A stretch of 64,000 nucleotides of DNA from Haladaptatus cibarius D43 (GTDB lineage Archaea; Halobacteriota; Halobacteria; Halobacteriales; Haladaptataceae). Each line of letters begins with the position of its first letter. The first letter of the stretch is position 1. The notes below the pieces were generated by a model, which made no database searches, was not told where the DNA came from, and saw only the letters and a program-made list of their open reading frames with translations. Both the position numbers and the translations under genes were made by a program. This document shows positions 39,310 through 49,095 of this stretch, one piece after another. Location of the stretch: NCBI RefSeq assembly GCF_000710615.1, contig NZ_JDTH01000002.1:1790082-1854081 (forward strand), written 5' to 3'.

Positions 39310-39999
39310 GTGTCCAAAGAAGAGAAACAGCGGATAAGAGTCTGTATCGACGTTCTCCCCAGCGACGATACAAACGTGTTTCGAATCGGTGTTGCAGACG
39401 ACATTCTTCGTCTGTTGACCGACGCAAACGATACGGAGTTCACGATTTCCGAACTCGTCAATGCGACAGGGGTGACTCGCTCGACAGTTTGGCGGGCTGT
39501 ACAACTACTGGACAATCTCGGTGTTGTCCGAATTCGTGAGACGCCACAGCGAAATTACGTTTCCATCGACCCCACACGTCTTCAAAAAGACGACCCAATA
39601 CTCGCCATCGAGCAACCCGAGTTTCACGACCCTGTTCGAATGTTCATCAAGGAAGTTCAGTCTGCACTCGGTGAGACAGGCGATATCGAGACTGTCGTCG
39701 GTATCGTCCTGTTCGGAAGCGTCGCTCGCGGTGAGGCAGACAGACAGAGCGACATTGACCTCTTTGTCGTCGTTGATGGCGACAGAACGAGTGCGAGACG
39801 CCACGTGACGGACGTGGTCAGCGACCTGAGCGAACGTCGATTCGGCGGCGACCGGTTCGACTTCGAACCGTACGTCGAATCGACCGAGAGCGCGCGACGA
39901 GCAGGCGAGAAGTTGCGAGATATCTTCGAGGAAGGAATTACTGTGTACGGAACCGAACAGCTTCAGTCGATTCGAAAGGGGGTCTTCGCAGATGAGTAG
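39310..39999 (+). CDS. Winged-helix + minimal nucleotidyltransferase (MNT) antitoxin-like protein
   Basis: A 229-residue protein. The N-terminal HTH (FTISELVNATGVTRSTVWRA) is followed by a minimal nucleotidyltransferase domain. VLFGSVARGEADRQSDIDLFVV carries the G-S-x9-D-x-D active-site motif intact. In MNT/HEPN toxin-antitoxin pairs the MNT antitoxin modifies the HEPN toxin by nucleotidylation. Here the HTH fusion suggests it also autoregulates. The GTG start is supported by the TATA spacing. The 3' end overlaps the HEPN gene by 8 bases. Confidence 0.82.
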   Translation: MSKEEKQRIRVCIDVLPSDDTNVFRIGVADDILRLLTDANDTEFTISELVNATGVTRSTVWRAVQLLDNLGVVRIRETPQRNYVSIDPTRLQKDDPILAIEQPEFHDPVRMFIKEVQSALGETGDIETVVGIVLFGSVARGEADRQSDIDLFVVVDGDRTSARRHVTDVVSDLSERRFGGDRFDFEPYVESTESARRAGEKLRDIFEEGITVYGTEQLQSIRKGVFADE

Positions 40000-40480
40000 T
40001 TCGAGAATCGAAACACTCCTAGACGAGGTACAGGCCTCCTTTGACAGGCGGCCAGACGACATCGAAACCGGACTGACCGTCGAGGATGCCGCTCTCTTGC
40101 AGCTTCGGAAGGCATGTCGTTTGCTCGCAGGTGCTGACGCGCTCCGCGACGAAGGCTACTACACACTCGTCATCGAAGCGGCGTTCGCGGCCATCGAGCG
40201 AACGGTCGAGTTTCGGTTGTTGGAGCGCGGGACAGCACAGTCCAATTCGCTCCCCGAAACGCATCCCGGTGTCTACCGCGAAGCAGCATCCGCAGGTATC
40301 TTCTCCGAATCAGTCGCCGACAACCTCGCCGACCTGTGGCGCGACCACCGAGCGAAGACGTACTATCAGGACGGGGTCGCGGCGGCGAATCGCGCGGAAA
40401 AAATGCACGGGCTTGCGTCGGAGATACACCGATTCGTCGTTGGTCGCTCTTCGCAGGGTCATGAGTGTATCTGCGAGTAG
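39992..40480 (+). CDS. HEPN-domain toxin-like protein
   Basis: A 162-residue all-helical protein. LRKACRLLAGADALRDEGYY and VIEAAFAAIERTVEFRLLER match HEPN helices. The usual HEPN RNase signature R-x(4-6)-H is not evident. The corresponding segment reads LWRDHRAKTYYQDGVAAANR, so Tyr residues stand where His would be expected; Tyr is also the residue type AMPylated in some MNT/HEPN systems. It is co-translated with the MNT gene through an 8-base overlap. Toxicity is not established. Confidence 0.75.
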   Translation: MSSSRIETLLDEVQASFDRRPDDIETGLTVEDAALLQLRKACRLLAGADALRDEGYYTLVIEAAFAAIERTVEFRLLERGTAQSNSLPETHPGVYREAASAGIFSESVADNLADLWRDHRAKTYYQDGVAAANRAEKMHGLASEIHRFVVGRSSQGHECICE

Positions 40481-40760: not shown

Positions 40761-41711
40761 CTACCCAAGGATGTTCTTACGTTCTGATTCGGACAGGCTG
40801 ACGTCCGGGCCGACGTTCCGGGAGCACTCTTCGCACTCGTAGGATGCCCCGCCCTCATCGAAGGTGTACATCGGGAGTCCGAACAGGAAAAACGCATCCT
40901 CCTGATGACGCTCGATTACTGTAGCGGCATCTGCCCCGCAGGATGGACAGTGGTTCTGATCCGGGGCCGGTTCTTGATAGGTGACTTTCGCCCGCCCGAA
41001 TGACGGATACGCCTCGCTCTTCGTCGTCTGAATGATGTCCTCGTGTGGAATCGTCCGTTCCGTGACCGTGTTTTCCACCCCCGTGTCCGTCGCTACGTTT
41101 AGATCGACGTAAGGTGCCACTTCGATAGTGTTATGCGAGCCGGCAAGGTGGAGGTTCACGGTTCCGCGATTCCCTTCGATATCCACGGAGTTCTTCCAAC
41201 CGGTGACGTACAAGTCTATCTCCCGAGTGAGTTCCTCTATCTCTACGGAACAGCGGCCACCAGCGACACCGACACCTGTAGACGGATCAGAGCTGTGCAG
41301 AGACCGCTCCCAACCAGTTACAGTCTCGTCGTACTCCTCACGAGCTGTCGGTGTTCCGGCATCGCTGTCGTCGAAGACGCGTTCTGACCCGACGACCTGT
41401 AACTCTCCGCTAACGGCGTTGTGCTCGATGAACACGTCCCCCGCGTCCCGTATCACGACATCGCCGGTGGCACCGTCCGGCATCACGTAGCCGTCTTCGA
41501 GCGCGCCAGAGATTTCCGTCTCGATGCCGTCGAGGTCAACTTCTCCGCCGGTTTCCGTATTCGTGAACACGTACTCTGCATTCACGACCTTCAGGTTGCC
41601 GTCGATGCTCCCGGAGAGGACGTGAACGTTATCCGCACCATCGATTTCGATTGGCGTCTGTTCGTCACCAGTCAACGTTACGTCGCCTGAATATGATTCG
41701 GTACTGCTCAT
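40761..41711 (-). CDS. Beta-helix-like protein with C-terminal zinc ribbon
   Basis: A 316-residue acidic protein. The first about 220 residues are short repeated strands (VHVLSGSIDGNLKVVNAEYV, GDVVIRDAGDVFIEHNAVSG, NRGTVNLHLAGSHNTIEVAP), suggesting a right-handed beta-helix or bactofilin-like stack. The C-terminus has CPSCGAD and YECEECSRN, a four-Cys zinc ribbon. No signal peptide is seen. It is the last gene of the five-gene cluster, 112 bases after the channel gene. Function unknown. A 9-base inverted repeat (40698-40706/40725-40733) beyond its stop could mark a transcript end. Confidence 0.65.
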   Translation of the reverse strand: MSSTESYSGDVTLTGDEQTPIEIDGADNVHVLSGSIDGNLKVVNAEYVFTNTETGGEVDLDGIETEISGALEDGYVMPDGATGDVVIRDAGDVFIEHNAVSGELQVVGSERVFDDSDAGTPTAREEYDETVTGWERSLHSSDPSTGVGVAGGRCSVEIEELTREIDLYVTGWKNSVDIEGNRGTVNLHLAGSHNTIEVAPYVDLNVATDTGVENTVTERTIPHEDIIQTTKSEAYPSFGRAKVTYQEPAPDQNHCPSCGADAATVIERHQEDAFFLFGLPMYTFDEGGASYECEECSRNVGPDVSLSESERKNILG

Positions 41712-41823
41712 AGTTGCTGTATCGCTCCTTCGACTGTCGAAATACGAAGCATGTCAGCTGTTTTGTAGCGCTGATACTTCAACGCTCAGGAAAACAGTCA
41801 CGCGAGGGCAGCGACCCCCAGCG

Positions 41824-44004
41824 TCAGATTTCGCTACGTTTGATCAGGGCGTAGAGGAACAACCCAGCGAGGATCACGTTCAAGTACACGAGTCCAGCCG
41901 CAGTGAACCTCGCGCCGATTCCAGTGGGGCCGATGCCGCCGTATCCGATAGTGAGGAACGTGATGTAGCTGAAGTAGATGTTGATCATCAACGTATGCAA
42001 CCCGTCTGATGTGGCCAACGCTCCAATCGACGAGAGTTGGTCTCCACTGGTGGCGAACGGATCTCCACCAAACGCGAAGACGAACCCTGCGATGAGCGGG
42101 AACAGGATGAAGACAGTCGTAATTCGATACAGTCGCAGTCCATACCCACACGACACACCGAGGAACCAGTTTTCTACCCCCCTGAGGAAGTTCTTGAAAC
42201 GCGTTTTGACTCCCTCCGAAGCGTCAGTAGCGATATCGATGAACTTCTTCCGAGCGAACTGCTGGCGCTTCACTCGGAATTCTCCGGCGGCCTTGATGTT
42301 ACTCTCCGTAGATGCACTGTTTTTCGCTTTCAGGTACGTCTTCTCGGTCATCTCGGGAGTCAGATCGGCGGCGAACTCGTAGTCGTGGTTCCCCGCATCA
42401 AATGTATGGAGGTTCCAGTCGTTCCGGTCTAAATATCCGGTGTGTGCTGCGAAGTCGAACCCTTCGAACGTCGTATCGCAGATGCGGAAGTAATCCAGCA
42501 ACTCCCGTTCGTCGTCCGGGTTCTCTGCTCGGAGCGTTACCGTCCCGAGTGTAGCTTTCGTAAAGTCAAAACGAATCCATCCGGACTCCGGTTGAATGAT
42601 CTCTCCGTCGTCAACCTCGGCGTCTGTGAAATTGAAGTACGTGTTCTGCCCGAATGATGATGCCCTCAGCTTGATCGAGTCATTGAATTCGGCGTTGATG
42701 AAATCGACGCTCCCCTCAAACTTCGCGTCCATGAAGTTAGCCGACGTAAACACTCCGTCGTGGAAGTCCGCATCATCGAGGAATATCGCCTCGGTGAAGA
42801 TGGCGTCATCGTGTAGGTAGTTGGTTCCACCGAGGAACTCCCCTCCTCGGAAGATCGCTTTCTGTTTGAACGTTGTGCCCTTGAAGCTCGCATCACCATT
42901 GAACAGAACCTCATCGAAGTCCGCAACGCTATCGAAGGTGGCACCATCGAACACCGCGTCGTCATCGAATTGAGTCCGTTCGAAATTGACGTCGTCCTGG
43001 AATGCTGTATTACTGAAGTTGGAGTAGTGAAATGTCCCCTGATAGAACGTGACCTCTCCAGCGAATGTGGCATCCTCGAACGTGACGTCGTCGGCGAGAA
43101 CCGCCGCCCCTCCGTGGAACTCCACACCACGAAATGTCGCGTGTGCATCGAACTGTGCATTCCTGAACGAGGTGTCGTCGTGGAAAGTTACCTCGTCAAA
43201 GTCAGCCACTCCGCTGAATGTACAGTCCGTAAGGAGGAACGCACCGTTCACGGTCGCTTTCTCGAATACTGCCGCTCCGTGGAACAGAACGTCCTCGAAC
43301 GATGTGTATTCGAACGTAGCGTACTCAAACGTCACATCGCCGTGGAATGTCGCCTCGTCGAACGTGGTGTTGTCACCTATCGAGTTCACGCGGCCATAGA
43401 ACTGTACAGCGAGGAAGCTTGCGTCAGCCTCGAAGACGGCCTCCTCGAAACTCACGTCCTTTCGGAAATCGGCCTCGTCAAAACAGACCTCTCCTTCGAA
43501 ACGACTGGCAGTGAAATCGCTGTCACCCTCCAACACGAGTGCATCGGAGAAGTCCACCTGCTCGGTAATCGTAGCGTGACTACAGAGGATTCCGTTCTCG
43601 AACGTACAGTCGTCGGCAACGATTCCCCCGACCTCACTGTGGCGGAGATCAAACGGTTCCTCAAACCGGGCGTCAGAAGCGGTGATGCCGCCTTCGATTG
43701 TGGTGTGTCGGAAGTCAATTGGATGCTGGTCGGCACCCTCAACGTCGATATACTCTAGCGTGATCTCCGGGAGAGTTGCCCCGATGAACACACGCTCCTC
43801 GGGCGTGCCAGTCTTCAGAATTGTAGTGATCTCTTTAGAGAGTTCGCTTTCGGAGATCCCTGTCTCACTACGTGCCTCTGGTTCCAGATGGAACTGGCAG
43901 TGATGGTGGTCTGCATGCGCTTCGTGGGGACACTCCCACACTCTTTGTACAGTAGTCGATTCGTGTTCCGCTGGGTCAAACGTGTATGAACAGCTCGTTG
44001 GCAT
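41824..44004 (-). CDS. Pentapeptide-repeat protein fused to a two-TM potassium-channel pore
   Basis: About 726 residues. The N-terminus has a Cys/His cluster (WECPHEAHADHHHCQFH). Residues about 90-490 are dense pentapeptide-like repeats with Phe at the central position (TFDEATFHGDVTFEYATFEY), predicting a long quadrilateral beta-helix. After a basic linker come two membrane helices (ITTVFILFPLIAGFVFAFGG, FTAAGLVYLNVILAGLFLYA). These flank YITFLTIGYGGIGPTGIG, an intact TIGYG selectivity filter with Gly instead of the usual Asp after it. I infer a cytoplasmic repeat domain gating a K+ pore. The ATG at 44004 is preferred to a GTG at 44046. Confidence 0.83.
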   Translation of the reverse strand: MPTSCSYTFDPAEHESTTVQRVWECPHEAHADHHHCQFHLEPEARSETGISESELSKEITTILKTGTPEERVFIGATLPEITLEYIDVEGADQHPIDFRHTTIEGGITASDARFEEPFDLRHSEVGGIVADDCTFENGILCSHATITEQVDFSDALVLEGDSDFTASRFEGEVCFDEADFRKDVSFEEAVFEADASFLAVQFYGRVNSIGDNTTFDEATFHGDVTFEYATFEYTSFEDVLFHGAAVFEKATVNGAFLLTDCTFSGVADFDEVTFHDDTSFRNAQFDAHATFRGVEFHGGAAVLADDVTFEDATFAGEVTFYQGTFHYSNFSNTAFQDDVNFERTQFDDDAVFDGATFDSVADFDEVLFNGDASFKGTTFKQKAIFRGGEFLGGTNYLHDDAIFTEAIFLDDADFHDGVFTSANFMDAKFEGSVDFINAEFNDSIKLRASSFGQNTYFNFTDAEVDDGEIIQPESGWIRFDFTKATLGTVTLRAENPDDERELLDYFRICDTTFEGFDFAAHTGYLDRNDWNLHTFDAGNHDYEFAADLTPEMTEKTYLKAKNSASTESNIKAAGEFRVKRQQFARKKFIDIATDASEGVKTRFKNFLRGVENWFLGVSCGYGLRLYRITTVFILFPLIAGFVFAFGGDPFATSGDQLSSIGALATSDGLHTLMINIYFSYITFLTIGYGGIGPTGIGARFTAAGLVYLNVILAGLFLYALIKRSEI

Positions 44005-44115
44005 CGTGTCGTATGGTATTGCTCTATCGTGTAGACGGCGCGTCACTCTGTGACATCGGTATCGCTATCTGTCGTCAGGATTCGTTTCAGCGTTTGTCTG
44101 TCACTCTCCAACCGT

Positions 44116-44619
44116 TCATTGGTCCAATCGCGTTTCACTGCGGAGCGCAAGACCGTGTTCTGGATACGTGTGATATGTCTCGTAGCACACCTCGCTTAGC
44201 ACGTCAATCGAGGTGTACGCCTCCGGGCCAAACTGATATGCAATATCGTATTCCGCCGGGTCGCTGAAACTAGACAGTGGTTCACTGGCGAACTCGACAG
44301 TGATGTCGAGATCGTCTATCGCGTGGGAGAGCGTTTCCGTATAGCCCTTCGTAATCGGTACGACGTTGACCATTCCATGAGGGCTACGCCGGAGATTTTC
44401 TCCCGGTTCTGGTTGGGTAGTGTCTGATTGAATCGGATTGCACGTGAGGAATTCATGGAATTGAAGCGCCTCACAGCCGATGTAGTGAGAATCTCCAATT
44501 ATGGTGAAAGTAAATTCGTGACCGAAGAACTCTCCGACCTCTTGGTGTTTGATTTCATACTCTTCAAGAGACGGTTTTTCGTCCGTGTACGAAAGGTACA
44601 GTTTCTCTGTTGTGCTCAT
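44116..44619 (-). CDS. Unknown protein, possibly DUF2617-like
   Basis: A 167-residue soluble acidic protein. The segments EFTFTIIGDSHYIGCEALQF and FHEFLTC, and the C-terminal SEVCYETYHTYPEHGLALRS, recall bacterial DUF2617, whose core has a G-x-S-H motif. DUF2617 genes occur beside spermidine-synthase-like genes in actinobacteria. The resemblance is weak and from memory. It starts 4 bases after the spermidine-synthase-like stop, so the two are surely one transcript. Confidence 0.55.
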   Translation of the reverse strand: MSTTEKLYLSYTDEKPSLEEYEIKHQEVGEFFGHEFTFTIIGDSHYIGCEALQFHEFLTCNPIQSDTTQPEPGENLRRSPHGMVNVVPITKGYTETLSHAIDDLDITVEFASEPLSSFSDPAEYDIAYQFGPEAYTSIDVLSEVCYETYHTYPEHGLALRSETRLDQ

Positions 44620-44623
44620 TGTG

Positions 44624-46444
44624 TTAGGCCTCGTTCGTGATGCTCGTGTTCCCGCTATCGATACTCACAGCCCGTGTATCGACGATGATGTCGTAGTTCG
44701 GGTGGAAGACCCGGTTCGTTTCTACATTGGTATAGGTGGGTGTCTTCCGCCACTCTCGGTCTTCGTAGTGGTCGCCGTATGTCTGAACGTATGTAGTTCC
44801 ATTCTGGGGACTAATGATTGGTCGGTTATCATCTGTGGCGAGCACATGGAAGCGCTCACCCAGTTGAGGATCGCCGTCCTGATTGAAGTCGTCCCGAGCC
44901 CAGTACGACATCTTGTACTCGAATCCGGCTTCAGAAACCGTGTTCATGTACGCTTTATAATGTTCCCCGTAGGCGTACTTCGAATATCCCCAAGTCACGA
45001 CAGTTCCGTCGTCGGAGAGATGATTGGTGAGCATCGAATAGAACTCGACGGAGTACAATCCGAGCATCTTCCGACTTTTCGCTCCGGGGAGGTCGAGGAG
45101 GATGACGTCGTACTGCTTGTCATTCTCCTGGAGATACGCATAGATGTCCTGTTGATGAACGCTGAGGTTCTCGTACTCGTAGGCATCGTCGTGGTACTGG
45201 CTCAGGAACGGATCGTCTTTCGCATACTCCAGAAACTCCCCGTCGATATCGACCTGGTCAACATCCACACGGTGATTTCGGAGGTGCTTGTCAGCGATGT
45301 AGTCCCCCCCGCCGACGAGGAGCACGTCGGTTTCCGTGCTGTTTGGATACATCGTCATCGGCACATCGACGAGACCACTGTGATACGAATCAGTCCAGCT
45401 GTCGCACACTTGTATCGCAGTATCCAACCGCATGCACGTATCAGAGTCTCCGGCGAACTGCATGTTCTTAGAGTCTCCCGCCCACGATCGTTCGTACTTC
45501 ACTATCTGCTGGTGTTTCGTCGTCTGCTGGTCGGTGATGTCGGCTTCAACTACGTCGTTGGCCCAGTTCGACTCGATGACGTCCTCCATGTAGTACTCGG
45601 TCACCTCATTGTTCACTGTCTGATGATTTACAGCGACCCCAGTGAACACACTGGTGAGGAGCAGACACGCGACGAGGAACGATACCCGTTCTTCGGTCAA
45701 GATATTCCGCTTCTCTTCGGCGAAGATGCCCCATGGACGAACACTGAACCGCAGGGCAAACAGCAACGCGGCGACACAGTTGAGTAGCGCCAACAGGAAC
45801 ACCGATGAGATGAGCCCGAACTCGGGGTAGAGATAGTACACGTAAATCAATGCCCCACCTAACCCACCGAGGTAATCCATCGCCAAGACCGTCGAGTACG
45901 TGTCGTACTCGTCACTGCTCTTCGATGTATGGAAGAACAAACCGGTCACTCGATAGGCGATGCTGTTGACTATCTCTGCGACCTTCACTCGCCATCCACC
46001 CGGGTCTGGATCGGTGCCGTGTTCGGCTTTCACCATTGACAGCAGTAACGGCAATTCGAACCCCGACAGGATGCCAACGAGGACAACAGGGAGGCGTGCA
46101 GCCACCTGCAATGCCATCGACGGCACGACAGCCGGGAACTCCACCGTGTTTATCCAGATAATAAACAACAATCCAGCTGGCGCAGCGAATGCAAGATACA
46201 CTTCCGTCCGGAAGAAGTTCGCATTCCGTCCATCGTCCAAATGCTTCGAGAGGTACGACCCGATTCCCAACGAAGAGAAAAACAGGCCGATAGTCAACCC
46301 ATACTGTGTGAGCGCCCCGCCGTACATCACCGTCAGCAACTCGGAGTACACCAGCTCGTATGCGAAACTACAGAGTGCGACGGCGAATGCGGCCGTGTGG
46401 AGGATCGCTTGTTTCGAGATTTGGGATGTGGATATACGCGACAT
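44624..46444 (-). CDS. Membrane-bound spermidine-synthase-like protein
   Basis: A 606-residue protein. About seven membrane helices occupy residues 10-275 (FAVALCSFAYELVYSELLTV onwards). A soluble aminopropyltransferase-like domain follows: VLLVGGGDYIADKHLRNHRV, VDQVDIDGEFLEYAKDDPFL and DVILLDLPGAKSRKMLGLYS. In spermidine synthase the loop after motif III is D-x-x-D with catalytic Asp residues. Here it reads D-L-P-G, so one Asp is replaced. The LYSVEFY tail is typical of the membrane-fused bacterial homologues. The substrate may not be a free polyamine. Confidence 0.82.
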   Translation of the reverse strand: MSRISTSQISKQAILHTAAFAVALCSFAYELVYSELLTVMYGGALTQYGLTIGLFFSSLGIGSYLSKHLDDGRNANFFRTEVYLAFAAPAGLLFIIWINTVEFPAVVPSMALQVAARLPVVLVGILSGFELPLLLSMVKAEHGTDPDPGGWRVKVAEIVNSIAYRVTGLFFHTSKSSDEYDTYSTVLAMDYLGGLGGALIYVYYLYPEFGLISSVFLLALLNCVAALLFALRFSVRPWGIFAEEKRNILTEERVSFLVACLLLTSVFTGVAVNHQTVNNEVTEYYMEDVIESNWANDVVEADITDQQTTKHQQIVKYERSWAGDSKNMQFAGDSDTCMRLDTAIQVCDSWTDSYHSGLVDVPMTMYPNSTETDVLLVGGGDYIADKHLRNHRVDVDQVDIDGEFLEYAKDDPFLSQYHDDAYEYENLSVHQQDIYAYLQENDKQYDVILLDLPGAKSRKMLGLYSVEFYSMLTNHLSDDGTVVTWGYSKYAYGEHYKAYMNTVSEAGFEYKMSYWARDDFNQDGDPQLGERFHVLATDDNRPIISPQNGTTYVQTYGDHYEDREWRKTPTYTNVETNRVFHPNYDIIVDTRAVSIDSGNTSITNEA

Positions 46445-46513
46445 TATCGGAGGAATCCGGTACTCTGACTGGAGATAGTATGAAGGCGATACTGCTGGTC
46501 GGACAGTTGCTCA

Positions 46514-47266
46514 TCAGACGCGTGGGGACACCTTCCATCGCTCGGTAACTTCTAAGCTCCCGTTGGCTCGCTCAACGCGGATGTCGATACATTCCCAGCC
46601 CAAGTCACCGTCTTCTCCCTCCGCTAAGGCTTGTTCTTCGATGACGGTGTGAGCGCCAACACGGTACCAGCCAGCGCCCTGCTCGCCGACAAGCGGCGTT
46701 TCGATCTTCGTGTTCGGATCGGGTTCGTCGTAGGTCTGATCCCAACTAACCGGCCCCGCTCCGGGGTCTTGTTCTTGGAACTGCTGATTCGTCCCGAGAT
46801 ATGCCACTCCAATCGCAGCGAGTGTCACCGGGTACTTCTCCACCTCATCCTCGTGGTCGTCGTACCAAGAGTTAGCGTATGAGCCACCGAAGAACCACGC
46901 TCGTCCGTTGTGCGTCCGTGGAGCCGAGGAGTACCCTCCAGACCCTCGGCCAGTAGCTCCTCGACCTTTGGCAGCGCTTGCGACGCCAACCGGGGAGAAC
47001 CCACTCAGTGAGTTCGCCGCCCCGTTGCCATTCGTGTTTCCGTCGGACGAGCCTGTAGAAACAAGGTCGATATCCCGTCGAGACATGACCCACTGTTGGT
47101 CGGCCGGGAACGGCCGAATCTGTAGATTGTTGCCCGTAATCGAGAGGTCGTTGACGACGTTCGACCGACGAGGGGGCGGAGAGTTCTCTGAAGTGCAACC
47201 AGCAAGCGCGGTGAGTGCGCCTGTGCCAACGATACCACCTTTTTGGAGGAAGCTACGACGTTTCAT
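46514..47266 (-). CDS. Tat-type lipoprotein of unknown function
   Basis: A 250-residue exported protein. MKRRSFLQKGGIVGTGALTA has the twin Arg, and ALAGC is a lipobox, so it is probably Tat-exported and lipid-anchored outside the membrane. A Gly/Ser-rich stretch (AAKGRGATGRGSGGYSS) precedes a domain with RAWFFGGSYANSWYDDHEDE and WECIDIRVERANGSLEVTER. No known family is recognised. An ATG 15 bases upstream is possible (start 47281). It is the first gene of the cluster, 69 bases before the spermidine-synthase-like gene. Confidence 0.72.
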   Translation of the reverse strand: MKRRSFLQKGGIVGTGALTALAGCTSENSPPPRRSNVVNDLSITGNNLQIRPFPADQQWVMSRRDIDLVSTGSSDGNTNGNGAANSLSGFSPVGVASAAKGRGATGRGSGGYSSAPRTHNGRAWFFGGSYANSWYDDHEDEVEKYPVTLAAIGVAYLGTNQQFQEQDPGAGPVSWDQTYDEPDPNTKIETPLVGEQGAGWYRVGAHTVIEEQALAEGEDGDLGWECIDIRVERANGSLEVTERWKVSPRV

Positions 47267-47281
47267 GGCTGTATATTTCAT

Positions 47282-47844: not shown

Positions 47845-49095
47845 TCACGTCTCGTCTTCTCGCCACCCGACCAACGACCGTAGTTCCTCGCTTACGTCCC
47901 AAACAGCCTTTCTTCCGAGCAAACCGCGCTCGGTCACGTACCCAGTGACGAACTCCGCGGGCGTTACGTCGAACGTCGGGTTCAGCACCGACAGACTCCC
48001 ATCGCCGTCGTACACCGCCGTAGAATCACCCGATTCCAGTTCCGGGCCGTCCACCCCGTCGCGGAGTCGTACCTTGTCGGTGGACGTAACGACGAACACC
48101 GGCACGCCTTCGCGGTTGGCGGCCATGGCCGCCAGCCGCGTTCCGGTCTTGTTCACCACGTCGCCGTTCGGGAGAACGGCATCCGCACCGACGACCACGC
48201 TGTCTACGTCCTCCGTCGCCAACACGTGCCCGATTCCGGCGTCGGTGTGAAGCGTTACGTTCGTACTTTCGGCGATTTCCTCCGCAACGCCGACGCTCTC
48301 ACATGCTGGTCGGGATTCCGCGACGAAGACGCGCTTCGCGCCGCGAAGCGCGTCCAACACGGTTCCGGAACGGGAAAGGGTGAAAACGGTCGAATCTTCG
48401 GTTTTCTCTCGTGCGTTTTCGGTCGCTTCCTCGTCAACTCGGTAGGCGCGGTCGATTCCCTCGATAGCGGACTGCTCGACGGTGGACGGGGAGTCAGTTT
48501 CCGCCATCACGCGATTGAGTCGGTTTTCGAGGACGGCCATGCTCGGCCGGGCAGAGCGAAGTTCGATTGCCAACTCGGCCAGTTCGTCCCAGTCGCCGTC
48601 TCGAACCGCGAGCAATCCGGCCCGGTCGCGGAGGATTTCGAGGGCACGAATCGAGATGTACGCGGAACCGTGTTTCGTATCCTCGGCGACCGATTCGACG
48701 CTCGGCGCGACGTGTTCGTAAGAGTTCCACAGGTCGGGCACCGTCTCCCGGCGAAGGATTTCGGTCGGAGGAACCCACTCCACCTCGGTCGTTTCCCAGT
48801 CGGGTTCGACTGCGCGAGTCGCGCAGTCGAACAGGTACGGGTGGACTATCCAGCGTTTTCCGAGCGATTCGTCTTCCACCTCGAAGGAATCGCCCGCTCG
48901 AACGAACGTACAGGCAAAAAACAGGCCGGTTTCCTCTTGGATTTCTTCGCGCGCGTGGGCGTCGGGGTCGTCCTCGGCGTGTCCGGCGACCGCGCCCCAC
49001 AGACCAGCATACGACCCGACCTGCTCGCTTCGCCGGAGCAGTAGCACGTCACCTCGATTCCGCAGAAAGCAGGTGACGACGTGGGCTTCGTCCAT
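47845..49095 (-). CDS. Nudix hydrolase fused to an eIF2B-like domain
   Basis: A 416-residue fusion. Residues about 1-140 form a Nudix domain (LWGAVAGHAEDDPDAHAREE, IQEETGL) with the catalytic E-E-x-G helix present, though the R-E pair is E-E. Residues about 170-416 match the eIF2B alpha/beta/delta and ribose-1,5-bisphosphate isomerase fold. SRSGTVLDALRGAKRVFVAE, DAGIGHVLATEDVDSVVVGA and GDVVNKTGTRLAAMAANREG are its conserved blocks. The combination suggests nucleotide- or sugar-phosphate processing; the exact substrate is unknown. Confidence 0.85.
   Translation of the reverse strand: MDEAHVVTCFLRNRGDVLLLRRSEQVGSYAGLWGAVAGHAEDDPDAHAREEIQEETGLFFACTFVRAGDSFEVEDESLGKRWIVHPYLFDCATRAVEPDWETTEVEWVPPTEILRRETVPDLWNSYEHVAPSVESVAEDTKHGSAYISIRALEILRDRAGLLAVRDGDWDELAELAIELRSARPSMAVLENRLNRVMAETDSPSTVEQSAIEGIDRAYRVDEEATENAREKTEDSTVFTLSRSGTVLDALRGAKRVFVAESRPACESVGVAEEIAESTNVTLHTDAGIGHVLATEDVDSVVVGADAVLPNGDVVNKTGTRLAAMAANREGVPVFVVTSTDKVRLRDGVDGPELESGDSTAVYDGDGSLSVLNPTFDVTPAEFVTGYVTERGLLGRKAVWDVSEELRSLVGWREDET

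Follow-up and report, generated by a model that had tools for sequence, protein, structure and literature searches.

We analysed a 64,000-nucleotide stretch of the Haladaptatus cibarius D43 genome (contig NZ_JDTH01000002.1, positions 1,790,082 to 1,854,081 of the forward strand; hereafter the window) and found that five open reading frames (ORFs) within it, all on the minus strand at 40761-47266 and transcribed in the order E-D-C-B-A, form a module that is conserved among haloarchaea. D encodes a membrane spermidine-synthase-like protein, and C a DUF2617 protein that could be an unrecognised decarboxylase of S-adenosylmethionine (AdoMet) supplying D with its donor, which is the most valuable lead to come from this locus; E, B and A encode a lipoprotein, a predicted K+ channel and a zinc-ribbon protein. 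We put the probability of the whole mechanism proposed below for the module at about 0.55.

An earlier reading of the same DNA, the original prediction, had described five same-strand genes separated by 69, 4, 111 and 112 bases. All five ORFs and the E-D (69), D-C (4) and B-A (112) gaps stand, but the C-B gap is 108 bases when B is read from its ATG start. The domain assignments made at the same time agree with our Pfam and family-alignment results for all five proteins.

Conservation and spread of the five genes

We surveyed 391 Halobacteria genomes from 86 genera, in which homologues were found by scanning the genome contigs with alignments; a single-sequence scan of the same contigs gave nothing. 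D is present in 59 genomes (23 genera), C is confined to exactly these 59, and A and E each occur in the 59 and in two more, counts that overstate independence because the surveyed genomes are related. One of the two extra A genes is intact and lies amid short pieces of sequence that match B, C and E (genome G292, contig C9, locus L244), apparently a decaying module, and the other, in G236, is a zinc-ribbon fragment only. E-like sequences were also observed away from the D module (G013 C1:1543108, G016 C1:920789 and G263 C19:78285), with E present without D in G263 and G016.

In addition, we compared the gene neighbourhoods around D at 64 further loci, leaving loci cut by a contig end out of the A and B losses. 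C and E accompany D at all 64; at locus L121, D and the C match occupy opposite ends of one contig. A is absent solely from L041, and B from L038, L041 and L082-L084. The genes are arranged as E-D-C-A-B, as E-D-C-B-A (the window order), with A divergent from E-D-C-B, or with A and B convergent with E-D-C, and no further gene family recurs beside D across host families. In a second, named collection, all five genes were found at 44 of 57 haloarchaeal loci, with B alone missing in nine. The five proteins have correlated pairwise evolutionary distances, with rho values of 0.50-0.78 compared to at most 0.25 in 200 permutations. The earlier proposal that the five genes form a system is borne out by this neighbourhood comparison across Halobacteria, in both co-occurrence and synteny, and that they are a conserved module is in our view virtually certain.

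In the D phylogeny, the window protein groups with Halohasta (84/84) inside a well-supported clade of Haloquadratum and Halovenus, apart from Halorussus, the nearest same-family genomes to the host, and some copies of the module are carried on plasmids, for example in Halorussus aquaticus. This placement, together with the plasmid locations, suggests horizontal spread, and the module is apparently mobile. One Halorussus replicon (G018 contig C2; L033 and L042) bears two copies near its ends, in one of which D is split into two ORFs, and a tandem pair of E-type lipoprotein genes lies upstream of D at L031 and L032.

A membrane aminopropyltransferase-like protein in genomes without SpeD

The D protein (606 residues, 44624..46444) consists of seven transmembrane (TM) helices followed by an aminopropyltransferase domain. 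It scores 58.8 bits for Pfam Spermine_synth (PF01564; cut-off 22.9; 6.7e-16), and reaches 211.6 bits against NCBIfam PRK03612, below the equivalog cut-off of 472, so that D is related to this family rather than an equivalog. Its profile matches in the PDB are aminopropyltransferases, the best being the Thermus thermophilus enzyme (1e-21), to which the AlphaFold2 (AF2) model of D (pLDDT 86.5) also aligns in Foldseek at 3e-11 and TMt 0.58-0.70. Within the catalytic domain (residues ~299-536, 44837..45550), which also carries D399, the residues Q345, Y354, H355, GGGD381, D401, D433 and the catalytic D451 show no variation, either among haloarchaea or in 14 bacterial relatives. In the acceptor loop, however, haloarchaeal D keeps D451 and has G454 in place of the second acidic residue, whereas the bacterial relatives mostly have both (DFPDP). 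D thus lacks the pair of acidic residues (DxxDP or DFPDP) that marks a putrescine-acceptor spermidine synthase, and given G454 we do not file it as a putrescine aminopropyltransferase. Haloarchaeal D further contains an invariant Cys337/Cys347 pair that is absent in the bacterial relatives.

The membrane domain (residues ~6-272, 45629..46429) is delimited by hydropathy, the helices of the AF2 model and charge bias, and its intramembrane residues E30, E130, D190 and N222 are conserved, also in the bacterial relatives. In the latter, the density of lysine plus arginine is high at the N-terminus and in loops 2/3, 4/5 and 6/7, and low in loops 1/2, 3/4 and 5/6 and after TM7; haloarchaeal D displays the same pattern, albeit weaker. 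By the positive-inside rule, this pattern predicts that the catalytic domain lies outside the cell. The domain may accordingly face outwards, and an outward topology with an acceptor in the envelope is a possibility that we hold tentatively, at somewhat less than even odds.

No AdoMet decarboxylase has been reported in any sequenced halophile, a gap that led to the question of where halophile SpeE homologues obtain their donor (PMC5178350). In our searches, conventional SpeD (PF02675) was absent from all 60 haloarchaea tested, 40 of them carrying D, while the same search gave matches in 8 of 14 controls and, across the phylum, in 37 of 100 genomes. The eukaryotic AdoMet decarboxylase family PF01536 matched none of 34 genomes, and since its controls were also silent, its absence is not established.

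In Haloferax volcanii, HVO_B0357 resembles D in its GGGD(W/Y) motif, seven TM helices and short tail; it is probably the D gene of this organism, and very probably a D orthologue. HVO_0255 is a second paralogue type with a GG(GA)G motif, unlike D, and it is the disruption of HVO_0255, not of HVO_B0357, that has been linked to hypochlorite tolerance (PMC5178350, PMC6267482). A second SpeE-like paralogue matching the catalytic part of D only, probably of the HVO_0255 type, was seen at L013-L026, L028 and L029, and also occurs in genomes without C.

The DUF2617 protein as a candidate AdoMet decarboxylase

C (167 residues, 44116..44619) was originally predicted to be possibly DUF2617-like and one more soluble partner of the cluster. 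The family assignment is supported: the window protein scores 17.8 against DUF2617 (PF10936) over nearly all of its length, under the gathering cut-off of 22.3 (0.0036), but all 26 family members examined match DUF2617 (best 5e-8), the Haloferax volcanii protein lies above the cut-off, and a Haloarcula orthologue is annotated as DUF2617. As for its role, our results suggest that C is better described as an enzyme resembling AdoMet decarboxylase.

The top PDB match of the C profile is the AdoMet decarboxylase 2iii (E 0.25), with the HTYPE motif of C (His150 to Glu154, 44158..44172) aligned to the HTWPE motif of SpeD. When the C-terminal half of C was compared with 21 SpeD proteins using hhalign, scores reached 36-37 (Prob 86-89%, P 2-5e-6), compared to maxima of 18.9 and 3.8% for 60 column-shuffled profiles and of 15.0 and 0.9% for 31 decoys from real families. 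In a search of 16,088 ORFs with a SpeD hidden Markov model, 15 C proteins ranked directly below three true SpeDs. The genomic setting points the same way: of 17 loci with bacterial relatives of D, 10 have speD no more than about 4 kb away and none has DUF2617, whereas in haloarchaea C stands directly behind D, the reverse of the bacterial pattern.

Six residues of C never vary across 64-65 sequences with identity down to 17%: S44, H45, E56, C60, T136 and H150. Ser44-His45 (44485..44490; both invariant in 65 of 65) is the proposed self-cleavage site, with Ser44 as the putative pyruvoyl serine, and Cys60 (44440..44442; 65 of 65) is the proposed catalytic cysteine, a role suggested by the layout of AdoMet decarboxylases. 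In the eukaryotic class 2 enzymes, the cleavage serine and catalytic cysteine are located in the first half of the chain, and a serine and a His-x-x-Pro-Glu motif in the second. The order of the conserved residues in C (Ser, Cys, then His) resembles this layout.

Several observations weigh against this assignment and against the wider mechanism. The 15 C proteins recovered by the SpeD search are related to each other and amount to roughly one observation, and within the C-terminal half the likeness is supported by sequence over no more than some 30-33 residues. The N-terminal half scores 15, within the decoy range, and although its alignment lands on the Ser-His of the ESH motif, the equivalence of S44 and C60 to the catalytic residues is not backed by a significant alignment. 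None of the 26 C members had a PF02675 match among its Pfam results, and we therefore describe C as AdoMet-decarboxylase-like rather than as a member of SpeD; a comparison of its halves likewise detected no internal duplication. The predicted structure of C, examined for the alpha/beta/beta/alpha fold of AdoMet decarboxylases, is confident (pLDDT 91.5) and nearly all-beta, and it found no significant Foldseek match in the PDB: chains of AdoMet decarboxylase and prozyme have the highest listed probability (0.54; TMq 0.34-0.36, E about 0.1), but rank 23rd and lower by E-value. For D, G454 disrupts the acidic acceptor pair, and an outward catalytic domain would be unusual for an enzyme that uses decarboxylated AdoMet, while B and A are tied to the chemistry of D and C by linkage alone. 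Finally, agmatine and cadaverine have been detected in Haloferax volcanii but spermidine has not, and deletion of HVO_B0357 gave no phenotype (PMC5178350). Weighing both sides, we consider it quite probable that C is homologous to AdoMet decarboxylase, and somewhat favour its being an active decarboxylase that serves D.

The most credible alternative, which we nevertheless consider unlikely, is that C is a non-catalytic beta-sandwich regulator or chaperone of D, its likeness to SpeD being convergent or the relic of a dead paralogue, and that D uses AdoMet itself or an imported donor. The weak fold match, the missing PF02675 match and the lack of SpeD in the genomes fit this explanation, and dead AdoMet decarboxylase paralogues such as prozyme are known (PMC5201418). 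However, invariant Ser, His, Glu, Cys, Thr and His residues at such low identity would be unusual for a purely structural partner, and DUF2617 has been predicted to be enzymatic (PMC11237479).

We judged it less probable that the cluster is an envelope-stress operon of the phage shock protein (PSP) type, as found in bacteria, without special donor chemistry. Bacterial membrane-SpeE operons do carry lipoproteins, DUF350 and DUF4178, and related ones potassium channels or DUF2617 (PMC11237479), but a Pfam search limited to the five proteins found no PspA, CesT/Tir, DUF350 or DUF4178 among them, and the lack of an additional family recurring beside D also argues against it. Such an operon is in any case compatible with a donor role for C. 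Slightly less probable again is that C is a SpeD-derived decarboxylase of arginine or ornithine that supplies the acceptor for D rather than its donor. SpeD homologues have repeatedly become such decarboxylases in bacteria and archaea (PMC10407285), and C adjoins an aminopropyltransferase. The known enzymes, however, are recognised without, or in addition to, a SpeE/SpeD pair, while C is found solely together with D; Haloferax volcanii already possesses an essential arginine decarboxylase, HVO_1958 (PMC5178350), and the donor of D would be left unexplained. A chance or functionally unrelated neighbourhood, for which one could cite the hypothetical annotation of several members and the variable gene order, is practically negligible in the face of the identical phyletic pattern of D and C, the near-identical one of A and E, synteny at the 64 further loci and the correlated distances.

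Partner proteins, proposed mechanism and known systems

B (727 residues, 41824..44007 from the ATG, with a possible GTG start at 44046) combines an N-terminal Cys/His motif, present in many members and absent in others, with a pentapeptide-repeat region (Pfam Pentapeptide_3, 7e-47) and a C-terminal pore that matches Ion_trans_2 below the cut-off (residues 671-722, 0.0014). The pore region (41842..41997) contains a TIGYG selectivity filter and the second TM helix; T686 and G688-Y689-G690 of the TxGYG filter are invariant in 16 of 16 sequences, and the matches include KirBac, TOK1 and KCa3.1 (5e-4 to 6e-3). With TxGYG flanked by two TM helices, B is predicted from sequence to be a 2-TM K+ channel. 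The idea that B is a defence effector, prompted by a very weak match to Hailong HalA (0.14), was dropped once the adjacent HTH/HEPN pair had been rejected as a partner (see below).

A (316 residues, 40761..41711) comprises a DUF3060-type repeat region followed by a CxxC...CxxC zinc ribbon with invariant C255, C258, C293 and C296, and has no signal peptide. The window protein gives only weak zinc-ribbon and DUF3060 matches in Pfam, but DUF3060 is matched by 25 of 25 family members (best 2e-7); in some genomes A is split or recognisable by its C-terminal part alone. E (250 residues, 46514..47266) is a lipoprotein of the twin-arginine translocation (Tat) type that begins MKRRSFL and has an LAGC lipobox, with R3, R4, G23 and C24 invariant in 25 of 25 aligned homologues and an N-terminal RR...GC common to the family. 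The window protein has no Pfam match, and within its family the only Pfam match is the TAT signal, found in 5 of 25 members. Conserved regions of E read RGATGRGxGGYSSAPRTxHGxAW and WKVSPR.

Bringing these components together, we infer that C would be a divergent AdoMet decarboxylase of the pyruvoyl type: it would undergo self-cleavage before Ser44 and generate decarboxylated AdoMet as the donor for D, the next gene upstream across the 4-base gap. D would then transfer the aminopropyl group to an amine that is not putrescine, the candidates for this acceptor being agmatine or an envelope amine. Its catalytic domain possibly lies outside the cell, in which case the donor could reach it by way of the membrane domain, which contains conserved acidic residues, and the outward lipoprotein E could act as substrate, receptor or chaperone of the reaction. 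B and A may couple the reaction to K+ flux, a step that we regard as doubtful. Equally speculative is the generalisation that DUF2617 as a whole is an unrecognised AdoMet decarboxylase family, in haloarchaea a compact class-2-like single chain feeding an outward membrane aminopropyltransferase that modifies envelope amines. We did not find the idea of DUF2617 as an AdoMet decarboxylase stated in the literature searched, with subscription literature outside the coverage.

If correct, this assignment would answer where halophiles obtain decarboxylated AdoMet, supply an archaeal single-chain AdoMet decarboxylase with a class 2 layout, and give the bacterial DUF2617 members a function too. A named candidate gene that always stands beside a D-type SpeE renders the question of the halophile donor testable in model strains. 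In cells whose internal K+ is high, the module further associates a surface lipoprotein and a K+-channel protein with chemistry of the polyamine type. From the charges along D, an aminopropyltransferase that faces outwards is predicted in archaea and bacteria alike.

On the plus strand adjoining the cluster (39310-40480), a helix-turn-helix (HTH)-nucleotidyltransferase gene overlaps the small gene behind it, which has a weak HEPN/AbiV match, and the two look like an MNT/HEPN toxin-antitoxin-type pair. We rejected this pair as a partner of the module, given its opposite strand and families that do not recur in at least three related loci. On the other side, a minus-strand gene (47845-49095) encodes a single 416-residue protein fusing a NUDIX domain to an IF-2B-type domain.

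Finally, we compared the module and its proteins with known systems. C shares with SpeD the profile match around HTWPE/HTYPE in the C-terminal half, and its invariant Ser-His, with a Cys downstream and a His further on in the single chain, resembles the layout of class 2 AdoMet decarboxylases. It differs in having no PF02675 match, a nearly all-beta model and an N-terminal half unrecognisable by sequence, and it is about half the length of class 2 enzymes; one study reports detecting no SpeD fusion protein in extant archaea (PMC10407285). In the actinobacterial variant with DUF2617 and DUF4247 (CCP45394/CCP45395, PMC11237479), DUF2617 adjoins lipoprotein and polyamine genes, as it does here, but E has no Pfam DUF4247 match, and the description of that variant does not mention proteins like A or B.

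Bacterial operons that join a membrane SpeE with speD, DUF350, DUF4178 and lipoproteins, including variants with DUF2617, have been described (PMC11237479). The original prediction had pointed to associations of this kind, and we also found bacterial examples: the PRK03612-type operons of Novosphingobium (L233) and Alteromonas (L234) encode a 7-TM SpeE-like protein that shares the invariant catalytic and intramembrane residues of D, and likewise place polyamine-type genes beside lipoprotein or membrane partners. The haloarchaeal genes differ from them in the Cys pair and G454 of D, where most bacterial relatives have Asp, and in lacking DUF350, DUF4178 and PspA among the five. A role in stress or ion homeostasis, as first envisaged, gained no support from this analysis, while the accompanying idea of a polyamine-like modification would gain a donor, in organisms without SpeD, if C resembles AdoMet decarboxylase in function, as our results suggest. 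Taken together, the module represents a haloarchaeal form of the membrane-SpeE systems known from bacteria, as the expectation of a counterpart with different partners had implied, with C in the place of speD and with A and B added.

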